This document shows, one piece after another, positions 15,706 through 33,406 of a DNA stretch of 64,000 bases. The stretch is from Pseudomonas lalkuanensis (GTDB taxonomy: Bacteria > Pseudomonadota > Gammaproteobacteria > Pseudomonadales > Pseudomonadaceae): NCBI RefSeq assembly GCF_008807375.1, contig NZ_CP043311.1, forward strand, positions 1,902,001 through 1,966,000, written 5' to 3'. The notes under the pieces were generated by a model, which was given only the letters and a program-made list of their open reading frames with translations, was not told where the DNA came from and ran no database searches. Position 1 is the stretch's first letter. Each line of letters opens with the position of its first letter. Made by a program: the position numbers and the translations under genes.

Positions 15706-16590
15706 TCAATCAGTTGCCTTGGACACTTCCACCGCCCTCGGCTTGGGCGCGAACTTCGCCGCCAGGCGCATGGAGGTGGTGACCAGGCGCTGGTAGAGGG
15801 TGGGCAGCAGACGCTGCATGCCATCCAGCGCCCAGGCATCGGCGCCGATGAGGATGCGGCGGCTGTCGCGCAGCACGCCACGCAGGATCACCGCGGCGGC
15901 CTTGTCCGGGCTGGTCCGCAGCAACTGGTCGTTGAACTGCTGGCGGGCACGGCTGGATTCCTGGCCGGTGACCTTGGCCAGGCTGTCGTTCATCCGCGCG
16001 GTCTTGGCGATGTTGGTGCGGATGCCGCCGGGGTGCACGCAGCTGGCGGAAACGCCGCAGCCTTCCATGTCCAGTTCCTGGCGCAGCGACTCGGTGAAAC
16101 CGCGTACGGCGAACTTGGTGGCGTTGTAGGCGCTCATGCCCGGCTGGGCAAACAGGCCGAACACGCTGGAAACGTTGACCACATGACCTTCGCCGCTGGC
16201 CTTGAGGTGGGGCAGGAAGGCCTTGGTGCCGTACACCACGCCCCAGAAGTTGATGTTCATGATCCACTCGTATTCCGAGTAGTCGCTGCCATCCACCGTG
16301 CCGGCGTGGGCGACGCCGGCGTTGTTGAAGACCAGGTTGACCCGGCCATGGTCCAGCACCACCTGTTCGGCCCAGGCGTGAACGGCGTCGCGGTTGGCGA
16401 CATCGACGCGGGTTTCGGTGACTTGCACACCCAGCTTGCGCGCCATGGCGGCGGTTTCCGCCAGGCCGTCGGTGTTCACGTCGGCCAGGGCCAGGTGGCA
16501 GCCCTGGCGGGCGAGGGCACAGGCCAGGGCGCGGCCGATGCCGGAGCCGGCACCGGTGACTGCAGCGACTTTGTTCTCGAAGGATTTCAT
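15706..16590 (-). CDS. Short-chain dehydrogenase paired with a monooxygenase
   Basis: A 294-residue SDR. It shows the cofactor motif TGAGSGIG near the N-terminus, the D in LADVN that selects NAD, NNAG, and the catalytic Ser/YxxxK (VSSVFGLF... and YNATK). The C-terminal extension beyond residue 240 (AWALDGMQRLLPTLYQ) is like SDRs encoded next to Baeyer-Villiger monooxygenases in actinobacteria and pseudomonads. Its ATG overlaps the monooxygenase stop by four bases. A likely role is oxidising an alcohol to the ketone used by the partner, which is an inference. Confidence 0.85.
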   Translation of the reverse strand: MKSFENKVAAVTGAGSGIGRALACALARQGCHLALADVNTDGLAETAAMARKLGVQVTETRVDVANRDAVHAWAEQVVLDHGRVNLVFNNAGVAHAGTVDGSDYSEYEWIMNINFWGVVYGTKAFLPHLKASGEGHVVNVSSVFGLFAQPGMSAYNATKFAVRGFTESLRQELDMEGCGVSASCVHPGGIRTNIAKTARMNDSLAKVTGQESSRARQQFNDQLLRTSPDKAAAVILRGVLRDSRRILIGADAWALDGMQRLLPTLYQRLVTTSMRLAAKFAPKPRAVEVSKATD

Positions 16591-18131
16591 GCCGGCACCT
16601 CCTGGGTGGACATTTGCAGCGGGCCCTGGGCGGTGTGCACCGGCACGCTGCGGCTGAAGTGATAGGCCGCCGGGTCGAAGTTGCGGGTCAGCAGGCGGAA
16701 GCGCCAGGTGAAGCCGGGCCAGACGGTGCAGTTACGGCCGCTTACCGGGTGCAGGTACCAGCTCATGCAGCCGCCGGCATTCCACACGGTCTTGCCCAGG
16801 CTGCCCTGGAGCTTGCCGTTGAACTTGTCCTGCACGTCACGCTTGACCTCCAGGCTGCGCAGGCGGCGGGCATCGAGCAGGTCCAGGGCGCCGAGCACGT
16901 AATGGATCTGCGATTCGATCATGTAGACCATGGAGTTGTGGCCCAGGCCCGTGTTCGGTCCCATGAGGAAGAACAGGTTGGGGAAGCCCGCGGTCAGGGT
17001 GCCCTTGTAGGCTTCCGGACCTTGCGGCCAGGTGTCCAGCAGGTCGACACCGTTACGGCCGAAGACCACGCCACGGGGCAGCGGGTCGCTGGGGGTGAAG
17101 CCCGTGCCGAAGATGATGGCGTCGATCTCGCGTTCCTTGCCGTCGGCGGTGACGATGCTGTTCTTGCGGATTTCCTGGATGCCGTCGGTGATCACGTCGA
17201 CGTTGGGCTGGGTCAGCGCCGGGTAATAGTCGTTGGAGATCAGCACACGCTTGCAGCCCATGGTGTAGTCGGGCGTGACCTTGGCGCGCAGGACCGGGTC
17301 CTTGATCTTGCGCTTGATGTAACCCCTGGCGACCCATTCGGCGAGCTTCATCACCTTCGGCGTCAGGGCGAAGCCAATCACGCGGCTTTCGAGGACGGTG
17401 TAGATGGCGCCGCGCCAGAGTTGCTGCAGGAAGGGGAAGCGCTTGAAGCGGGAGCGCTCGCCCTCGCTGATGGCGCGGTCCGGCTTGGGCATGATCCAGG
17501 GCGCGGTGCGCTGGTAGAGGTCGAGCTGGGCGACCTGCTTCTGGATCTGCGGCACGAACTGGATGCTGGAAGCGCCGGTACCGACCACGGCGACGCGTTT
17601 GCCGGTGAGGTCGTAGTCGTGATTCCACTGCTGGGAATGGAAGGTTTCGCCCTTGAAGTTACTCAGGCCGTTCAGCGGCGGGATCGACGGGGTGGACAGG
17701 GCGCCCATGCCGGAGACCACGAACTGCGCGCTGTAGCGGTTGCCGGCGGCGTCTTCGATCTGCCACAGCTCGTCCACGTCGTTCCAGGCCAGGCGGGTGA
17801 TCTCGGTGCCCAGCAGGGTCTTGTCCTGCAGGCGGTACTTTTCCCAGCAGCCTTCCAGGTAGGCCTTGATCTCTTCCTGCTTGGCGAACATCCGCGTCCA
17901 GTTCGGGTTCGGCTCGAAGGAGAAGGAATAGAGATGGGATTGCACGTCGCAGCCACAGCCCGGGTAGTTGTTCACTCGCCAGGTGCCGCCGATGCCGGGC
18001 TCCTTCTCGAACATGAGGAAATCGTTCTCGCCTTTCTGCTTCAGGCGGATCGCCATGCCGAGGCCGGAGAAGCCGGAACCTATGATGGCGATCTTGCAAT
18101 GGCGGGCAGAGGGTCGGGGTGACGCAGTCAT
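16587..18131 (-). CDS. Baeyer-Villiger-type flavin monooxygenase
   Basis: A 514-residue FAD- and NADPH-dependent monooxygenase. The FAD Rossmann motif GSGFSGLG is at about 18-25, the Baeyer-Villiger fingerprint FKGETFHSQQW at 159-169 and the NADPH motif GTGASS at 184-189; GTGFTPSDPL is the later conserved segment. It should insert oxygen next to a ketone carbonyl, or oxidise a heteroatom. The first gene of a two-gene operon with the SDR, it diverges from a TetR regulator across two palindromic operators. The substrate is unknown; long-chain or cyclic ketones are plausible for this class. Confidence 0.88.
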   Translation of the reverse strand: MTASPRPSARHCKIAIIGSGFSGLGMAIRLKQKGENDFLMFEKEPGIGGTWRVNNYPGCGCDVQSHLYSFSFEPNPNWTRMFAKQEEIKAYLEGCWEKYRLQDKTLLGTEITRLAWNDVDELWQIEDAAGNRYSAQFVVSGMGALSTPSIPPLNGLSNFKGETFHSQQWNHDYDLTGKRVAVVGTGASSIQFVPQIQKQVAQLDLYQRTAPWIMPKPDRAISEGERSRFKRFPFLQQLWRGAIYTVLESRVIGFALTPKVMKLAEWVARGYIKRKIKDPVLRAKVTPDYTMGCKRVLISNDYYPALTQPNVDVITDGIQEIRKNSIVTADGKEREIDAIIFGTGFTPSDPLPRGVVFGRNGVDLLDTWPQGPEAYKGTLTAGFPNLFFLMGPNTGLGHNSMVYMIESQIHYVLGALDLLDARRLRSLEVKRDVQDKFNGKLQGSLGKTVWNAGGCMSWYLHPVSGRNCTVWPGFTWRFRLLTRNFDPAAYHFSRSVPVHTAQGPLQMSTQEVPA

Positions 18132-18246: not shown

Positions 18247-18954
18247 ATGAATTCCGCCAGCGGCGACGAGCTCCAGTCGCCAGAACGAGCTCCCGATGCC
18301 CCCGGCAAGCGCCTGCTCATGGAAGCCGCGCTGCGCCTGGGTTCCCAGAGTCGCAGCCTGGGCAGCCTGGGGTTGCGCGAACTGGCGCGGGAGGCCGGGC
18401 TGAACCCCAATACCTTCTACCGTCACTTCAAGGATGTGGATGACCTGGGGCTGGCCATCATCCGCAGCATCTCCACCCAGTTGCGCCAGCCCTTGCGTGA
18501 CCTGCGCCGGGAAGCGGCGCTGCGCGCCGTGCAGGGCGACGGCGGTGTGTTGCCGAAGCTGATGGGCATCGACCTGGGCCGCGGCCGGCGCGTCTGCCAT
18601 GAGACGGTGCAGCTGTTCTTCGACTTCGTCGATGGCAACACCGAGGCCTTCATCATCGGCGTGCGCGAATTGCACGGCGCATCCCCGGTACTGCGCGAGG
18701 CGCTTCAGGAGGTGATGGAGGGCTTCGCCGCCGACATGGCCGAGGACGTGCGCGAATACAAACTGCTGCCGGCGCTGGTCTCGGAACCGGTGGTGCGGCG
18801 CGTCGCGCGCCTGATCAGCCGCAACCTGTTCCAGATGTCCCTGGACTACATCGGCGAGCCGGATCGCCGGGCGGCGATCCGCGCGGAGGCAGAGGAGCAG
18901 GTGCTGTTCCTCTTCACCGGCGCCAGCGTGCTGCAAGCGGTGGGGGCGGTGTAG
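18247..18954 (+). CDS. TetR-family regulator, FabR/DesT-like HTH
   Basis: A 235-residue regulator. The helix-turn-helix LGLRELAREAGLNPNTFYRHFKDVDDLGLA resembles that of FabR and DesT, regulators that bind fatty acyl-CoA. The ligand domain is otherwise unlike. It lies divergent from the monooxygenase/SDR operon with two palindromic operators between, so it most likely represses that operon and itself. An acyl or lipid-like inducer is possible by similarity of the DNA-binding domain, but not shown. Confidence 0.82.
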   Translation: MNSASGDELQSPERAPDAPGKRLLMEAALRLGSQSRSLGSLGLRELAREAGLNPNTFYRHFKDVDDLGLAIIRSISTQLRQPLRDLRREAALRAVQGDGGVLPKLMGIDLGRGRRVCHETVQLFFDFVDGNTEAFIIGVRELHGASPVLREALQEVMEGFAADMAEDVREYKLLPALVSEPVVRRVARLISRNLFQMSLDYIGEPDRRAAIRAEAEEQVLFLFTGASVLQAVGAV

Positions 18955-23164: not shown

Positions 23165-24067
23165 TCAGGCGGCCGCGACCTGCACTTGGCCACGCAGCCA
23201 GTCCAGCGCCGGGTCGCCAAGGGTGCGTTGGTGCCAGGCCAGATCGAAGGTGATCCCCGGCAGCTCGAACGGTGGCGGCACCACGGCCAGGTGATCCATG
23301 TCGATCCGGCGCAGGACGCGACTGGCAACGGTGAGGATGAGGTCGGTGCCGGCGATCAATTGCGGGGCCACGCTCCAGTGGGGCAGGCGCACGGCAATGC
23401 GGCGGCGCTCGCGGATGCGGGTCAGTGCGCGCTCGATCTCGGCGGCGCCACCGCCGCTCATCTCGACCAGCACATGGGGGCGCGCCAGGTAGCTGGCGAG
23501 GTCGAGCTCTTGCGCGGGCAGGCTGTTGCGGTCCACCAGGCAGGCGAAGCCTTCCTCGAACAGGCTGGTGCTGCGCAGGTTGTCGGGCAGTTCCGGGAAA
23601 ACCCCGGCGGCCAGGTCGATCTCGCCATTCTGCAGTTGTTCCAGCATGGTCTCGCGGCTGCCCTGGCTGATTTCCAGGTCGATTCCGGGCGCCTGCTCGC
23701 GCAGGGCGCGGGTCAGGGTCGGCAGCAGGCTGGCGGCGCCGTAATCGGACATGGCCAGGCGAAAGCTGCGCTGGGCAGTGCCGGGATCGAAGCCTTGGGG
23801 AGCCAGCAGCGCCTGGACCCTTCCCAGGGCCTCGGCCAGTGGGCGCTGCAATTCCAGGGCGCGTGGGGTGGGCGTCAGACCGCCGCCAACGCGAACCAGC
23901 AATGGATCGGCGAGCAGGTCGCGCAAGCGTCCCAGGGCGTGGCTGACCGCCGGTTGGCTGAGGTGCAGGCGTTCGGCGGCGCGGGTGACGTGCTGCTCGG
24001 CCAGTAGGGCGTCGAGGATGACCAGCAGGTTCAGGTCGATGCGGCGAAGATCATTCATTTGCTGCAT
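23165..24067 (-). CDS. LysR-family regulator, NodD-like
   Basis: A 300-residue LTTR. The N-terminus RRIDLNLLVILDALLAEQHVTRAAERLHLSQPAVSHALGRLRDLL is the NodD/PcpR-like subgroup pattern, and the effector domain starts at FRLAMSDYG. It is divergent from a small YdcZ-type transporter gene, its likely target. ATG at 24067 or 24058 may be used. A 7-7-7 dyad lies in the intergenic region. Confidence 0.85.
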   Translation of the reverse strand: MQQMNDLRRIDLNLLVILDALLAEQHVTRAAERLHLSQPAVSHALGRLRDLLADPLLVRVGGGLTPTPRALELQRPLAEALGRVQALLAPQGFDPGTAQRSFRLAMSDYGAASLLPTLTRALREQAPGIDLEISQGSRETMLEQLQNGEIDLAAGVFPELPDNLRSTSLFEEGFACLVDRNSLPAQELDLASYLARPHVLVEMSGGGAAEIERALTRIRERRRIAVRLPHWSVAPQLIAGTDLILTVASRVLRRIDMDHLAVVPPPFELPGITFDLAWHQRTLGDPALDWLRGQVQVAAA

Positions 24068-24101: not shown

Positions 24102-24146
24102 CATGGATTGCATAGAGTCCAGGAAAAGTTTCCTGGAGTACCTGTC

Positions 24147-24641
24147 ATGCCATCGATCCAAACGCTTCTTCTGCTGTTGCTGGCCCTGGGCGCCGGGGCC
24201 GTAGTGCCACTTCAGGCCGGCACCAATGCCCTGTTGGGCCGGGGTCTGGGGCATCCGCTCTGGGCGACGCTGGTGTCTTTGCTGGTGAGCATCGCTGTGT
24301 TGCTGCCGCTGTTGCTGGCGCTGCGTGTGCCGATGCCGTCCTTCGCCTTTGCCGCCAAGGCGCCGATCTGGGTGTGGAGCGGCGGCACCTATGGTGTCTG
24401 CTTCATTTCCCTGGCGTTGATCCTTGCGCCCAAGCTGGGGGTGAGCGGTTTCGTAGCGGCGGCGGTGGCAGGGCAGATGCTGGCGTCCCTGGCCCTGGAT
24501 CACTTCGGTCTGATGGGGCTGACGGAGCGACCGCTGAATCCGGGCAAGGCGCTGGGTGCACTGTTGCTGGTTGCGGGTGTCGTGGTGTTGCAGGTGTTCA
24601 GCAGCGAGGTGGCGCCAGTGGTGCAGCGCGCCGGGGCCTAG
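24147..24641 (+). CDS. DMT-superfamily transporter, YdcZ (DUF606) type
   Basis: A 164-residue membrane protein with about five helices. The opening helix containing GAVVPLQAGTNALLGR and the later YGVCFISLALILAPKLG and LALDHFGLMG segments fit the five-TM DUF606/YdcZ group of drug/metabolite transporters, which probably act as dimers. CTGGAG at 24133-24138 fixes the ATG at 24147. Divergent LysR regulator; substrate unknown. Confidence 0.82.
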   Translation: MPSIQTLLLLLLALGAGAVVPLQAGTNALLGRGLGHPLWATLVSLLVSIAVLLPLLLALRVPMPSFAFAAKAPIWVWSGGTYGVCFISLALILAPKLGVSGFVAAAVAGQMLASLALDHFGLMGLTERPLNPGKALGALLLVAGVVVLQVFSSEVAPVVQRAGA

Positions 24642-24898
24642 TCGAGAGAATCAGTCGAGCCAGCCGGTGCCAGGCGCGCGCAGGGCCATCAAATATGTCG
24701 TGCCTGACGCTAAAAAATCTATATCTGAAGCCTTGTGCCGCGCGGTCCCTGGGGTTTTCCGCGCGTGCAGCTTTTTCCTAGCCAGCGACTACAAAAATCA
24801 TAATTTCGCGAATCCCTGCCTCTGAACAGAATGCGGCCAACCCCAACAAATAGCCGCATCAGCAGAACAACAAAGATCAGAGTCAGAGGAGGCAAGCC

Positions 24899-26218
24899 AT
24901 GACCGACCTGAACCAAGCCGCCTTTCAAAAGCACATGGGCGTGACGGTTGAACAAATGGAAATAGATACGCTTGTTGTCGGTGCCGGCCAGGCCGGCGTG
25001 GCCATGAGCGAGCACCTTAGCAAGCTCGGCGTGCCCCACCTGGTTCTCGAGCGCAACCGCATTGCCGAAGCCTGGCGCACGGGGCGTTGGGATTCGCTGG
25101 TGGCCAATGGCCCGGCCTGGCACGACCGCTTCCCCGGGCTGGAATTCGAAGGCCTCGACCCTGACGCCTTCGCCCCGAAGGAGCAGGTTGCGGCGTACTT
25201 CGAGGCCTATGCGAAGAAATTCGACGCCCCCATCCGCACTGGGGTGGAAGTGAAGAGCGTGGTTCGCAATTCCGATCGCCCGGGCTTCACGATCGAAACC
25301 TCCGAAGGTGTGATCCAGGCCCGCCGCGTGGTATCTGCCACCGGCCCCTTCCAGCGTCCGGTCATTCCGCCGATCGCGCCCAAGGATGATCGGCTCATGC
25401 AGATCCACTCCGCCCAGTACCGCAATCCGGAGCAGATGCCTGAGGGCGCCGTCCTGGTAGTGGGTGCGGGCTCGTCGGGGGTGCAGATCGCAGATGAACT
25501 GATGCGCGCCGGCCGGAAGGTCTACCTGTCGGTCGGGCCGCATGATCGTCCTCCGCGCGCCTACCGCAACCGTGATTTCTGCTGGTGGCTGGGCGTTCTT
25601 GGCGAGTGGGATGCCGAGGCGGCCAGGCCGGGCAAGGAGCACGTCACCATTGCGGTGAGCGGTGCCCGCGGCGGCAAGACAGTCGATTTCCGCGAACTGG
25701 CCCAGGAGGGCATGACGCTGGTCGGCCTGACGAAATCCTTCAATGACGGTGTGGTGACCTTTCAGGCCGATCTTGCGGAAAACCTCGCTCGCGGCGACGA
25801 AAACTACCTGTCGCTGCTGGATGCTGCGGATGCCTACATCGCCCGCAATGGTCTCGACCTTCCGGAAGAACCCGAAGCTCGCAAGACCTTCCCGGAACCG
25901 GAATGCGTGGCCAATCCGATTCTGGACCTCGACCTCGCCGAGGCTGGCGTCACTTCGATCATCTGGGCCACCGGCTATTCCGTAGATTTCAGCTGGCTGC
26001 AGGTCAACGCCTTCGACGCGAACGGCAAGCCAAAGCATCAGCGCGGTGTTTCCAGCGAGCCTGGCGTGTATTTCCTCGGGCTGCCCTGGCTGTCCCGTCG
26101 CGGCTCCACCTTCATCTGGGGGGTCTGGCACGACGCCAAGCACATCGCCGACCACATCGCCACGCAGCGCAAATACCTCGCCTATCGCGACGCCGCGCAG
26201 CGCCAGGCCGAGGACTGA
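24899..26218 (+). CDS. Flavin-containing monooxygenase (CzcO/YUC-like)
   Basis: A 439-residue FAD/NAD(P)H enzyme. FAD motif GAGQAGVAMSEHL at about residues 28-40, ATGPFQRP (FATGY-like), NADPH motif VGAGSSGVQIADEL near 188, and IIWATGYSVDFSWL in the C-terminal part. It should oxygenate a nitrogen, sulfur or carbon atom of a small substrate. A strong AGGAGG site precedes the ATG. It is the first gene of a run with a Rid protein, DUF1028 and an ArgE-like hydrolase; all four face the same way with short gaps. Substrate unknown; an N-containing compound is likely given the partners. Confidence 0.85.
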   Translation: MTDLNQAAFQKHMGVTVEQMEIDTLVVGAGQAGVAMSEHLSKLGVPHLVLERNRIAEAWRTGRWDSLVANGPAWHDRFPGLEFEGLDPDAFAPKEQVAAYFEAYAKKFDAPIRTGVEVKSVVRNSDRPGFTIETSEGVIQARRVVSATGPFQRPVIPPIAPKDDRLMQIHSAQYRNPEQMPEGAVLVVGAGSSGVQIADELMRAGRKVYLSVGPHDRPPRAYRNRDFCWWLGVLGEWDAEAARPGKEHVTIAVSGARGGKTVDFRELAQEGMTLVGLTKSFNDGVVTFQADLAENLARGDENYLSLLDAADAYIARNGLDLPEEPEARKTFPEPECVANPILDLDLAEAGVTSIIWATGYSVDFSWLQVNAFDANGKPKHQRGVSSEPGVYFLGLPWLSRRGSTFIWGVWHDAKHIADHIATQRKYLAYRDAAQRQAED

Positions 26219-26287
26219 TTGAAGGATCAGTCCCGCATGCGCGCCCCGATTCGCACCCTCAACGCACTATTCAAAGGAAGCCAGTAG

Positions 26288-26719
26288 ATGCCTACCCATA
26301 CCCGCATCCGCATGTTCAATACAAAAGACACCTACCCGAACCAGACCCTGAACAACGACCTGTGCCAAGCAGTGCGCGCCGGCAATACGGTCTATGTTCG
26401 CGGTCAGGTCGGCACCGATTTCGAGGGACGGCTGGTGGGCCTCGGCGACCCGCGCGCCCAGACCGAGCAGGCGATGAAGAACGTCAAGCAACTGCTGGAA
26501 GAGGCTGGCAGCGACCTTTCCCACATCGTCAAGACCACCACCTACCTGATCGATCCGCGCTATCGCGAGCCCGTCTACCAGGAAGTCGGCAAGTGGCTGA
26601 AGGGCGTGTTCCCCATCTCCACCGGATTGGTGGTATCGGCACTCGGTCAGCCCCAGTGGCTCATGGAGATCGACGTCATCGCGGTGATTCCGGACGACTG
26701 GCAGCCGGAGCAGGTATAA
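26288..26719 (+). CDS. Rid-family (YjgF/UK114) protein lacking the catalytic Arg
   Basis: A 143-residue member of the YjgF/YER057c/UK114 fold, with the typical VYVRGQVGTDFEGRLVG start region and a C-terminal MEIDVIAVIP strand. The archetypal RidA hydrolyses reactive enamines/imines using an Arg (Arg105 in E. coli) in the segment before the last strand (EVARLP). Here that segment reads VVSALG, so the arginine is absent. It therefore belongs to a Rid subgroup without proven deaminase activity and probably acts on an intermediate of the pathway encoded by its neighbours. Confidence 0.85.
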   Translation: MPTHTRIRMFNTKDTYPNQTLNNDLCQAVRAGNTVYVRGQVGTDFEGRLVGLGDPRAQTEQAMKNVKQLLEEAGSDLSHIVKTTTYLIDPRYREPVYQEVGKWLKGVFPISTGLVVSALGQPQWLMEIDVIAVIPDDWQPEQV

Positions 26720-26730
26720 GGAGCAGGGTC

Positions 26731-27408
26731 ATGACGTTCTCCATTATCGGTCGCTGCCCCGAAACCGGGCAGCTCGGCATCGCCATCAGTTCTTCCAGCA
26801 TCGCCGTTGGCGCCCGTTGCCCCTGGGTGCGGGCCGGGGTCGGCGCGGTCGCGACCCAGAACGTCACCCTGCCGGCCCTGGGGCCGCAGATCCTCGACCT
26901 GCTCGACTCGCAGCAACTGGAACCGGCGGCCGCTCTCGACCGGGCACTCAGCACCAACGGCTGGAGCCAGTACCGGCAGGTGACCGTGATCGACGCCCAG
27001 GGTCGCACTGCGCTGTTCAGCGGCAGCGAGGCACTGGGGGTCCACAACGCGGTAGCCGGTGAGCAATGCGTCGCTGCCGGGAACCTGCTGTCCGGCACTC
27101 AGGTGATCCAGGTCATGGTGCAGGCCTTCGAAGCAACGCCCGGCGTGCTGGCCGATCGTCTGCTGGCGGCCATGCGTGCCGCGATGGCGGCCGGTGGTGA
27201 AGCCGGTCCCGTGCATTCGGCGGCGCTGAAAGTGATGGGGGACCTCACCTGGCCGATCATCGACCTTCGCGTCGACTGGGCGGAAGAGGATCCCATCGGG
27301 CAACTGGATACCCTATGGCAGGCATATCGGCCGCAGATGCAGGACTACCTGACCCGGGCGCTGAATCCGACCGCCGCGCCCAGCTACGGGGTGCCGGGCG
27401 ATGAGTGA
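26731..27408 (+). CDS. DUF1028 protein (Ntn-hydrolase-like)
   Basis: A 225-residue DUF1028 protein. The start MTFSIIGRCPETGQLGIAISS and the following VGARCPWVRAGVGAVATQ are the family hallmark. DUF1028 proteins have an Ntn-hydrolase-like fold, so amide hydrolysis is a reasonable guess, with Thr2 as a possible nucleophile (inference). AAGGAG precedes the ATG at 26731. It overlaps the next gene by eight bases. An open frame extends upstream through the Rid gene but is a shadow. Confidence 0.85.
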   Translation: MTFSIIGRCPETGQLGIAISSSSIAVGARCPWVRAGVGAVATQNVTLPALGPQILDLLDSQQLEPAAALDRALSTNGWSQYRQVTVIDAQGRTALFSGSEALGVHNAVAGEQCVAAGNLLSGTQVIQVMVQAFEATPGVLADRLLAAMRAAMAAGGEAGPVHSAALKVMGDLTWPIIDLRVDWAEEDPIGQLDTLWQAYRPQMQDYLTRALNPTAAPSYGVPGDE

Positions 27409-28573
27409 GTCGTCCAGTCGCGAGTTGCTCGAGCGGCTGATCGGCTTTGCGACGGTCAGTCGTGACTCCAACCTCGAGCTGATCGCGTTCATCCGGGACT
27501 ACCTCGCCGGGCTGGGGGTGGAGTGCGAGCTCTTTCATAACCCGGAACGCACCAAGGCCAACCTGTTCGCCACCATCGGTCCTCGCGACCGGGGTGGCGT
27601 CGTGCTTTCCGGGCATACGGACGTGGTGCCGGTGGATGGGCAGTCATGGACGGTAGAGCCTTTCCAGCTGACGGAGAGAGAAGGGCGGCTATATGGGCGC
27701 GGTACAGCGGATATGAAGGGCTTCATCGCATCAGTGCTGGCCGCGGTGCCTGCCTTTCTGGGGAGACCGCTGACGCTGCCGGTTCATCTGGCCTTCTCCT
27801 ATGACGAGGAGGTGGGCTGCCTGGGCGTGCGTCCTATGCTGGCGGAGCTGGAGCGGCGGCCCCACAAGCCGCGCCTGTGCCTGATCGGTGAGCCTACCGA
27901 GCTGAAACCGGTGCTGGGCCACAAGGGCAAGCTGGCGGTGCGCTGCCAGGTCCAGGGCGCCGCCTGTCATTCCGCCTATGCGCCCTATGGCGTCAATGCC
28001 ATCGAATACGCGGCGCGGCTGATCGGCAAGCTGGGGGATATCGGCGCGGAACTGGCGCGCCCCGAGCGTCATGACGAGCGTTTCGATCCACCGTTTTCCA
28101 CAGTCCAGACCGGGACCATCAAGGGCGGGCGTGCCCTGAACATCGTACCGGCGGAGTGCGAGTTCGATTTCGAGGTGCGTGCACTGCCGGACTTCGATGC
28201 CCGGCAGGTGGTGGATGAGCTGCAAGCTTACGCGGAGACCGAACTGGCGCCGCGGATGCGCGCCGTCCAGCCGGAAACGGGTATCAGCCTGAAGCCGTTG
28301 AGCGCCTATCCGGGGCTGGCCACTTCGCCGGACAGCGAGGCCGCGCGACTGCTCGCACTGCTCAGCGGTTCAACGGAGTTCGGCACGGTGGCCTTCGGTA
28401 CCGAGGGCGGTTTGTTCGAGCAAGCGGGCATTCCCACTGTGGTATGTGGTCCGGGAAGCATGGAGCAGGGGCACAAGCCGGACGAATTCATCAGCCGCGA
28501 GCAACTGGCCGGATGCGATGCGATGCTGCGCCGTCTGGCGCTTCATCTGCAGGGTGAAGGCGGTTCGGCGTAG
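27401..28573 (+). CDS. argE: ArgE-like M20 deacylase
   Basis: A 390-residue M20 metallohydrolase of the acetylornithine deacetylase/DapE group. Metal ligands: His in LSGHTDVVPVDG, Asp in GRGTADMKG, the general-base pair EE in SYDEEVGCLG, Glu in IGEPTELKP and His in MEQGHKPDEF. It would cleave an N-acyl group from an amino acid. Pseudomonads make arginine by the ArgJ transacetylation cycle and do not need ArgE, and this copy sits in an operon with a flavin monooxygenase, Rid and DUF1028, so a catabolic N-acyl substrate is more likely than N-acetylornithine. Confidence 0.82.
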   Translation: MSESSSRELLERLIGFATVSRDSNLELIAFIRDYLAGLGVECELFHNPERTKANLFATIGPRDRGGVVLSGHTDVVPVDGQSWTVEPFQLTEREGRLYGRGTADMKGFIASVLAAVPAFLGRPLTLPVHLAFSYDEEVGCLGVRPMLAELERRPHKPRLCLIGEPTELKPVLGHKGKLAVRCQVQGAACHSAYAPYGVNAIEYAARLIGKLGDIGAELARPERHDERFDPPFSTVQTGTIKGGRALNIVPAECEFDFEVRALPDFDARQVVDELQAYAETELAPRMRAVQPETGISLKPLSAYPGLATSPDSEAARLLALLSGSTEFGTVAFGTEGGLFEQAGIPTVVCGPGSMEQGHKPDEFISREQLAGCDAMLRRLALHLQGEGGSA

Positions 28574-32231: not shown

Positions 32232-33406
32232 TGGGCGAGCGTCGTCTTTTAAGTATTGTAATACCTACGCATAATAGATCGAAATATGCGATAGAGTGTG
32301 TAAAGAGCATTCTCGAGACTAATTCGAACGAGTTTGAAGTTGTTGTTCATGACACCAGTGACGATAGCTGTGAGTTGAAAGCGTGGGCAGTTTCTGTTTC
32401 TGATGATCGACTACGCTACGTTCATTGGGGAGAATCACTGTCGATGACGCAGAATCACGAGAAGGCGATTGCGTTGGCTTCCGGTGAGTTTGTTTGTCTG
32501 ATTGGCGACGATGATAGTGTTTCCAGTCAAATTATTTTGGCGGCAAAATTTGCAGATAGAATGGGAATTGATATTCTCACTCCTGAAATAAAGGCGATGT
32601 ATTCATGGCCTGACTTCAAGACCCGATTCTATGGGCGCGCTCATGCTGGAAAACTCTATCTTGGGAAAATCAGTAGGAAAATAGTAAAGAAAAATTCGGC
32701 TCAGGCACTAAAGATCTCGTTGGATAATGCTTGTCAAGGGACAGAAGGTCTACCTAAGCTCTATCATGGGTTAGTTAGAAAAACGCTACTGGACGAACTT
32801 AGGAAAAGCACCGGTTTGGTGTTCTATGGAACGAGCCCTGACATATCTGCCTCGTTGGGGCTTGCGCTCGTGAGTACGCACTTTTATGTAGTTGATTTTC
32901 CTTTCACGATCCCGGGGGCGTCAGGGGGTAGCAATACAGGGCGTAGTGCCGTTAACAGGCACAAAGGGGACATCAAGAATGATCCGCACATGCGGCCATT
33001 CAAAAATCTGACTTGGCCAAAAGAACTTCCATTCTTTTTCAGTGTTGAAACCGTTTGGGCGCACGCAGCTTGGGAAACTTTGAGTTTTCGCGCTCCTGAG
33101 TTACTTGTTGATTTCAACTTGAGTCGGTTAATTGCAGTATGCAAGGCGCGGCACTCGGATTTTCGAGCGCCAATTGAGCAGGCTGAAACATACCTGTTCG
33201 GTGTTGAGGGGAGAAGATACTCCTCAGAAGCAGTAAGACTTGCTCGGTTGGGATTTTTCTTTGAGCGTCTGGTAGGAAAAATTAAACGTATGCTTCATCC
33301 GTTACCGAACAATGGGATGAAAGCGTACGGCCCGTATGAGAATGTTCGGTATGCTAGGCTCAAGGCTGAACAACTATTGGGTAATGATCCGGTGTTCAAG
33401 GAATAG
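32231..33406 (+). CDS. Glycosyltransferase family 2
   Basis: A 391-residue GT-A fold enzyme. LSIVIPTHNRSKYAIECVKSIL is the nucleotide-binding N-terminus, and GDDDS at about residue 92-96 is the metal-binding DxD. The C-terminal half is unlike common families. It should add one sugar of the O-unit at the cytoplasmic face of the inner membrane. TAATG junction with wzz. Low GC and rare codons point to acquisition with the cluster. Donor and acceptor sugars are unknown. Confidence 0.8.
   Translation: MGERRLLSIVIPTHNRSKYAIECVKSILETNSNEFEVVVHDTSDDSCELKAWAVSVSDDRLRYVHWGESLSMTQNHEKAIALASGEFVCLIGDDDSVSSQIILAAKFADRMGIDILTPEIKAMYSWPDFKTRFYGRAHAGKLYLGKISRKIVKKNSAQALKISLDNACQGTEGLPKLYHGLVRKTLLDELRKSTGLVFYGTSPDISASLGLALVSTHFYVVDFPFTIPGASGGSNTGRSAVNRHKGDIKNDPHMRPFKNLTWPKELPFFFSVETVWAHAAWETLSFRAPELLVDFNLSRLIAVCKARHSDFRAPIEQAETYLFGVEGRRYSSEAVRLARLGFFFERLVGKIKRMLHPLPNNGMKAYGPYENVRYARLKAEQLLGNDPVFKE

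Follow-up and report, generated by a model that had tools for sequence, protein, structure and literature searches.

Four adjacent genes of Pseudomonas lalkuanensis very probably form hinFLHG, the lower half of histamine catabolism, with a DUF1028 protein and a Rid protein lacking the RidA arginine

The sequence under study is a window of 64,000 nucleotides from the chromosome of Pseudomonas lalkuanensis (contig NZ_CP043311.1, positions 1,902,001 to 1,966,000), and this work concerns four plus-strand genes that lie within it at 24899–28573. The open reading frames (ORFs) are tightly packed (69 and then 11 bases separate the first three, and the last two overlap by 8), and the products of genes 1 to 4 match, in order, the Pfam families Pyr_redox_3/FMO-like, Ribonuc_L-PSP (Rid, PF01042), DUF1028, and Peptidase_M20 with M20_dimer. 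An initial annotation, made from the letters of the DNA, had described this packing of a flavin monooxygenase (FMO), a Rid protein, a DUF1028 protein and an M20 deacylase, with which coordinates and Pfam agree, and had proposed a candidate undescribed catabolic system. We are nearly certain that these four are hinF, hinL, hinH and hinG, which make up the lower half of histamine catabolism. The operon and its pathway are already described: hinFLHG was reported in 2018 by de la Torre et al., as cited in the available excerpts of PMC8231116 and PMC6467879. The activity of the present copy is predicted by comparison, as in the following list of features.

24769–24809, plus strand: putative HinK (LysR) operator/promoter element, a match to the hinD-promoter motif at 30.6 bits.
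24899–26218, plus strand: hinF, 439 amino acids, FAD monooxygenase, predicted imidazoleacetate 4-monooxygenase (EC 1.14.13.5).
26288–26719, plus strand: hinL, 143 amino acids, Rid-family protein with Ser111 at the RidA catalytic arginine column, predicted to act on an imidazolone/formimino C=N group.
26731–27408, plus strand: hinH, 225 amino acids, DUF1028 protein of Ntn-hydrolase fold with Thr2 as candidate nucleophile, predicted imidazolone ring amidase.
27401–28573, plus strand: hinG, 390 amino acids, ArgE-like M20 deacylase, predicted N-formyl-L-aspartate deformylase (EC 3.5.1.8).

According to the same excerpts, hin2 (hinFLHG) of P. putida U corresponds to PA5393-PA5390 in P. aeruginosa PAO1 and leads from imidazole-4-acetate to aspartate (PMC8231116). 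A table in PMC6467879 lists HinF as a FAD monooxygenase (EC 1.14.13.5), HinL as an enamine deaminase, HinH as an amidase and HinG as EC 3.5.1.8, and log2 induction of PA5393-PA5390 by histamine in PAO1 is given as 7.9 to 11.1 (PMC8231116, PMC6467879). An earlier screen, again in excerpt, proposed the route histamine to imidazole-4-acetate to imidazolone acetate to N-formyl-aspartate and noted that genes for an aldehyde dehydrogenase, a permease and an aminotransferase lie opposite a divergently transcribed LysR gene (PMC2542419). The window has the same order on one strand, FAD monooxygenase, Rid protein, amidase and N-acyl amidase, and this order and the published labels identify the DUF1028 protein as HinH and the Rid protein as HinL. 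We found no difference in kind from hinFLHG of P. putida U and PAO1, with which the present operon shares the four families, their order, the type of regulator, a remote hinD/A/C cluster and a promoter element in common with hinD; the hin1-like cluster of P. lalkuanensis additionally has NMT1-type, ABC and NCS1 permease genes. The chemistry outlined in the initial annotation (oxygenation of an N-heterocycle, a ring or imine step by Rid and DUF1028 proteins, release of an amino acid from an N-acyl product) agrees with the published route, as does its view that the deacylase does not serve arginine synthesis, HinG being listed as EC 3.5.1.8.

The corresponding locus of P. aeruginosa PA7 (L062; L and G numbers are our labels for loci and genomes) carries the identical order FMO-Rid-DUF1028-M20, with identities of 81, 96, 79 and 76%, the first being that of HinF. 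It adjoins genes for a choline-type binding protein and a 3-hydroxyacyl-CoA dehydrogenase, which we take to be the carnitine neighbourhood of PA5390 in PAO1.

Conservation of the gene set was followed over 85 loci, a non-random sample made up of 80 contig loci (the best of 588 relatives listed when gene 1 was the query) and 5 plasmid regions picked by whole-operon similarity to plasmid records; gene presence was scored with tblastn. Genes 1–3 were present at every locus and gene 4 at 83 of the 85. The four genes were contiguous and in the same order at 63 loci, genes 1 and 2 being adjacent at 83 and genes 3 and 4 at 81. Among the 22 non-contiguous loci, 17 were split into separate F-L and H-G pairs, gene 1 was set apart in L021, and gene 4 in L059. 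Median identities over the loci were 81, 93, 77 and 74% for genes 1–4, the Rid protein being the most conserved (HinL 66–99% identical at all 85 loci). We also searched 57 genomes, namely the genome itself and members of its genus, family and order; these are related, hence the co-occurrence does not amount to 57 independent events. With presence set at no less than 65% identity for HinF, a score over the cut-off for DUF1028, E≤1e-100 for HinG and E≤1e-20 for HinL, each protein was found in 24 genomes, the same 24 every time, and one genome of the same genus (G012) had none of the four. Because order and adjacency are largely kept over the 85 loci and one set of 24 genomes holds all four proteins, the grouping is more than chance. 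The initial annotation had named a lack of co-occurrence beyond this genome as grounds for refuting its proposal; co-occurrence was found.

Three loci showed other arrangements. L061 (Paraburkholderia tropica) has hinF, but its best matches to the other three proteins, only 50–66% identical, are dispersed; the stretch also contains HinC- and HinD-like genes. On the short contigs L026 and L088 (SAR324 bins), hinF, hinL and hinH are present, and no hinG could be recognised in the stretch examined.

Likely partner genes lie on the same chromosome. The hin2 partners hinA, hinC and hinD and the LysR gene hinK all have counterparts in this genome, in a hinK-hinD-hinA-hinC-like cluster at chromosomal positions 1877725–1889039, outside the window and about 38–49 kb upstream of the operon (start 1926899). 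In it, LysR and aldehyde dehydrogenase genes are divergently oriented, and the latter is followed by genes for a solute-binding protein, an APC permease, an NMT1-type protein, an ABC ATPase region, a class-III aminotransferase and an NCS1 permease. The aminotransferase match at 1886114 is HinC-like and 88% identical to its homologue in the P. alcaligenes cluster (L048); in the comparison of the two clusters, identities were 90% for the aldehyde dehydrogenase, 89% for the solute-binding protein, 72% for the permease and 89% for the aminotransferase. The cluster resembles PA0218-PA0222 as described in excerpts of PMC8231116 and PMC2542419. Across the 57 genomes, a HinC-like aminotransferase at ≥77% identity was found in 20 (the next genome reaching 56%), a HinK-like LysR at E≤1e-90 in 23, with up to 39 candidates scored per genome, and a HinA-like permease at ≥74% in 16. 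All of these genomes fall within the operon-bearing 24, and weaker permease matches (about 50%) occur elsewhere, including G012 and G026. HinC and HinD were both in the same stretch as the operon at 18 of the 85 loci. The NMT1-type and ABC ATPase genes lie between the hinA- and hinC-like genes (L130:7210-9909, L130 being the chromosomal stretch 1876000–1895000).

The operon and hinD appear to share a promoter element. A conserved 41-base element was found 105–134 bases before the hinD start in 22 of 23 upstream stretches. One of the 23 (L147) was a second copy of the genome's own stretch and another, L090, was dropped (no site, 16/41); the other 21 gave 17 distinct sites, including the hinD site of this genome, from which a motif model was built. 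When both strands of the window were scanned, the best match was 24769–24809, which begins 130 bases before the hinF ATG and scored 30.6 bits against 14.3 for the next; with the left 20 columns only, the margin was smaller (23.1 versus 17.5 bits). The hinF upstream stretches reached 14.3 bits at 35 of the 85 loci, at 50–219 bases before the start. Random stretches of the window reached at least 10 bits in 11 of 4972 cases and at least 14.3 bits in none, and the AT-rich control had 37 of 3068 stretches at 14.2 or more, which fits the single site at 32675 (14.298 bits), just below 14.3. According to the excerpts of PMC8231116, imidazole-4-acetate is the signal for HinK, which binds at the promoters of both hinD and hinF. 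A putative operator common to both promoters is found here with a motif derived from hinD promoters in this work, not with the published motif, and we infer that the HinK-like LysR of P. lalkuanensis would act at 24769–24809.

Taken together with the published route, these data suggest the following scheme. HinF, with NAD(P)H and O2, would hydroxylate imidazole-4-acetate to hydroxyimidazole/imidazolone acetate. HinH, as an Ntn amidase with Thr2 as nucleophile, and HinL, as a Rid protein without the arginine, would open the ring to N-formimino-aspartate and then swap the imino group to give N-formyl-aspartate, from which HinG would strip formate to yield L-aspartate. The most likely split would have HinH cutting the ring amide and HinL handling the C=N group, a division of labour to which we give roughly an even chance. 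A LysR of the HinK type, responding to imidazole-4-acetate, would turn on the operon together with the remote hinD cluster. The detailed intermediates from imidazolone to aspartate follow known chemistry and are proposed here for this operon. The scheme is akin to the Hut histidine pathway (HutI-HutF-HutG) in its imidazolone ring opening, formimino loss and deformylation to an acidic amino acid. The Hut pathway yields glutamate and uses other enzyme families, whereas the present operon has an Ntn-fold protein, an arginine-less Rid protein and an M20 enzyme.

The properties of HinL bear directly on this division. All 86 HinL sequences have Ser111 where RidA has its catalytic arginine, and all 86 share Arg38; Glu127 lies at the column of a conserved RidA glutamate. 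HinL reaches no NCBIfam cut-off. The genome encodes seven PF01042 proteins, and HinL was aligned with five of the other six, L136 being left out for want of a usable ORF match. In the column of Ser111, the RidA-like L132 and L137 have arginine, L138 has serine, and L133 and L134 have arginine one column on, where the alignment is uncertain; in the column of Arg38, L132 has serine. We take L132 to be RidA, and its aligned arginine to be Arg105, on the basis of its motif. Excerpts of PMC4433059 and PMC8113886 state that RidA Arg105 is needed for imine hydrolysis and that neither imine hydrolysis nor deaminase activity was seen in those arginine-less Rid proteins that had been assayed, their functions being unknown; about 10% of RidA-subfamily proteins carry serine at this position, with unknown meaning (PMC4433059). 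HinL thus shares the Rid family and the conserved glutamate with the RutC/RidA deaminases, but has Ser111 in place of their catalytic arginine. An ordinary RidA-type imine deaminase was therefore rejected, and since imine hydrolysis depends on that arginine and HinL has Ser111, the published label "enamine deaminase" seems doubtful on the sequence and is held loosely here. As a guess, Arg38 might replace the RidA arginine. A different distribution of roles within hinFLHG has also to be weighed, in which HinL is a tautomerase/isomerase or a chaperone for the hydroxyimidazole and HinH performs the two hydrolyses, or in which ring opening falls to HinL and deimination to HinH. The invariant Ser111 and Arg38 and the behaviour of the arginine-less Rid proteins speak for it; against it stand the enamine deaminase label of PMC6467879 and nothing direct, and we regard it as a serious alternative with somewhat less than an even chance.

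For HinH, Thr2 was invariant in 86 of 86 sequences, and the structural model has the Ntn-hydrolase fold with Thr2 near the place of the proteasomal Thr1. Rows of the structure alignment, for example those for 1pma and 1m4y, have aligned ranges that begin at residue 2 of the model and residue 1 of the chain (ranges only). Thr2 would be a candidate nucleophile after removal of Met. The DUF1028 structure 2imh (SPO2555), deposited as a hypothetical protein, has the same family and fold as HinH (32–33% identity, TM 0.81–0.84); it differs in that the residue before the matching threonine in the crystallised chain is Leu. HinH had no match in NCBIfam or PHROGs. The DUF1028 family is large, at least 7,999 homologues having been scored. 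Text searches of a literature collection returned no DUF1028 paper and, under the topics hin, PA5390-PA5393 and imidazoleacetate/formylaspartate, none on the mechanism of HinL or HinH. In several records DUF1028 proteins bear the name 'major pilin protein fimA' (L097:10726-11400, UniRef names), probably a carried-over misnaming.

Several observations, beside the doubtful HinL label, weigh against the identification of the operon as hinFLHG. The match to the tested proteins of P. putida U (AWA45227-AWA45230) and PAO1 runs through gene order, families and the PA7 locus as a stand-in rather than through direct alignment, and no AraC-type gene was recognised among the ORFs scanned beside the operon in that locus, although cdhR adjoins the operon in PAO1. 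Four of the 24 operon-bearing genomes (G018, G022, G029, G035) had no HinC-like match at ≥77%, 21 of the 85 loci had none of six hin1-type proteins in the stretch examined at the identity limits set, and 50 of the 85 hinF upstream stretches scored under 14.3 bits. Finally, the NCBIfam acetylornithine deacetylase equivalog TIGR01892 accepts HinG at sequence level (406.7 versus a cut-off of 297.7).

A Burkholderiaceae variant of the locus belongs here as well. Genes for a Rieske oxygenase and an ABC ATPase and permease flank the operon at 8 of the 85 loci (L031, L042, L053, L072, L080, L089, L094, L096), all from Burkholderiaceae genera, and a PotD-like binding protein was called in seven of them. 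The best solved relative, by sequence, of the L096 Rieske protein is the oxygenase subunit of carnitine monooxygenase. None of the eight had a HinC or HinD match within the stretch examined; six of these genomes were searched whole, and five had an aminotransferase 60–63% identical to HinC, the sixth having none at E≤1e-100. The eight lowest HinK-motif scores upstream of hinF (n=85) include L031, L053, L072, L094 and L096. It is a reasonable guess that the Rieske variant takes a different feed compound. This variant and the four genomes without a close HinC are what favour the view of the initial annotation, that of an undescribed catabolic operon for another N-heterocycle, a cyclic amide or an N-acyl amino acid. 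Gene set, order and regulator type are those of the published hinFLHG, the promoter element is common to hinD, and the HinC, HinD and HinK partners accompany the operon, which together make that view very improbable for the genes studied here.

HinG carries H72, D74, D104, E136/E137, E164 and H358, presumably the metal and catalytic positions of M20 enzymes, conserved in at least 97% of 84 sequences. It passes two NCBIfam acetylornithine deacetylase models, and a second M20 homologue, 49% identical to it, is encoded elsewhere in the genome. Neighbours and distribution tie HinG to the hin set, and its arginine-pathway name comes from sequence models. That HinG belongs to the arginine pathway as a genuine ArgE and came to stand here by chance, as the equivalog cut-off might suggest, is scarcely credible, given its adjacency to hinH at 81 of 85 loci, its occurrence, at E≤1e-100, in the same genomes as the other three and in no others, and the second homologue.

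Because public models leave its pieces unnamed or misnamed (DUF1028, 'acetylornithine deacetylase', 'major pilin protein fimA'), a known pathway reads here as an unknown one. The remaining value of the locus lies in naming this DUF1028 branch, which links the scattered names to one role within a large family, and in the question of arginine-less Rid proteins, for which the hin route offers a defined pathway for testing. We tentatively put forward, while thinking it unlikely to hold as a whole, that HinL exemplifies the role of serine-for-arginine Rid proteins, with the substrate bound by Arg38 in place of the lost arginine and an imidazolone or formimino (amidine-type) C=N as target instead of 2-imino acids; that DUF1028 proteins are threonine-nucleophile lactam or ring amidases; and that the Burkholderiaceae module may be fed by the Rieske oxygenase and ABC transporter, perhaps by a demethylating route from N-methylated imidazole acetates and not from histamine.

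Other assignments at the locus were considered and set aside. The nearest NCBIfam model to HinF, the MSMEG_0569 flavin oxidoreductase (TIGR04046), scored 382.7 bits against a curated cut-off of 498.35, so that HinF is a related non-member, and an MSMEG_0569-type cluster was likewise rejected as its home. The upstream LysR (23165–24067) and YdcZ permease (24108–24641) genes were rejected as partners of the operon, being neighbours only in a few close relatives: among 97 loci, both adjoin it in L002, L003, L007 and L001 (the same genome), and YdcZ alone in L005/L014. The nearest NCBIfam model to this LysR is BsrA, below the cut-off. A scan for sigma-70 promoters and terminators gave two promoter-like and two terminator-like sites, none of them useful. 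Elsewhere in the window, at 16587–18131 and 18247–18954, a second FMO/Baeyer-Villiger-type monooxygenase gene is divergent from that of a TetR regulator, whose nearest model is FabR, below the cut-off.

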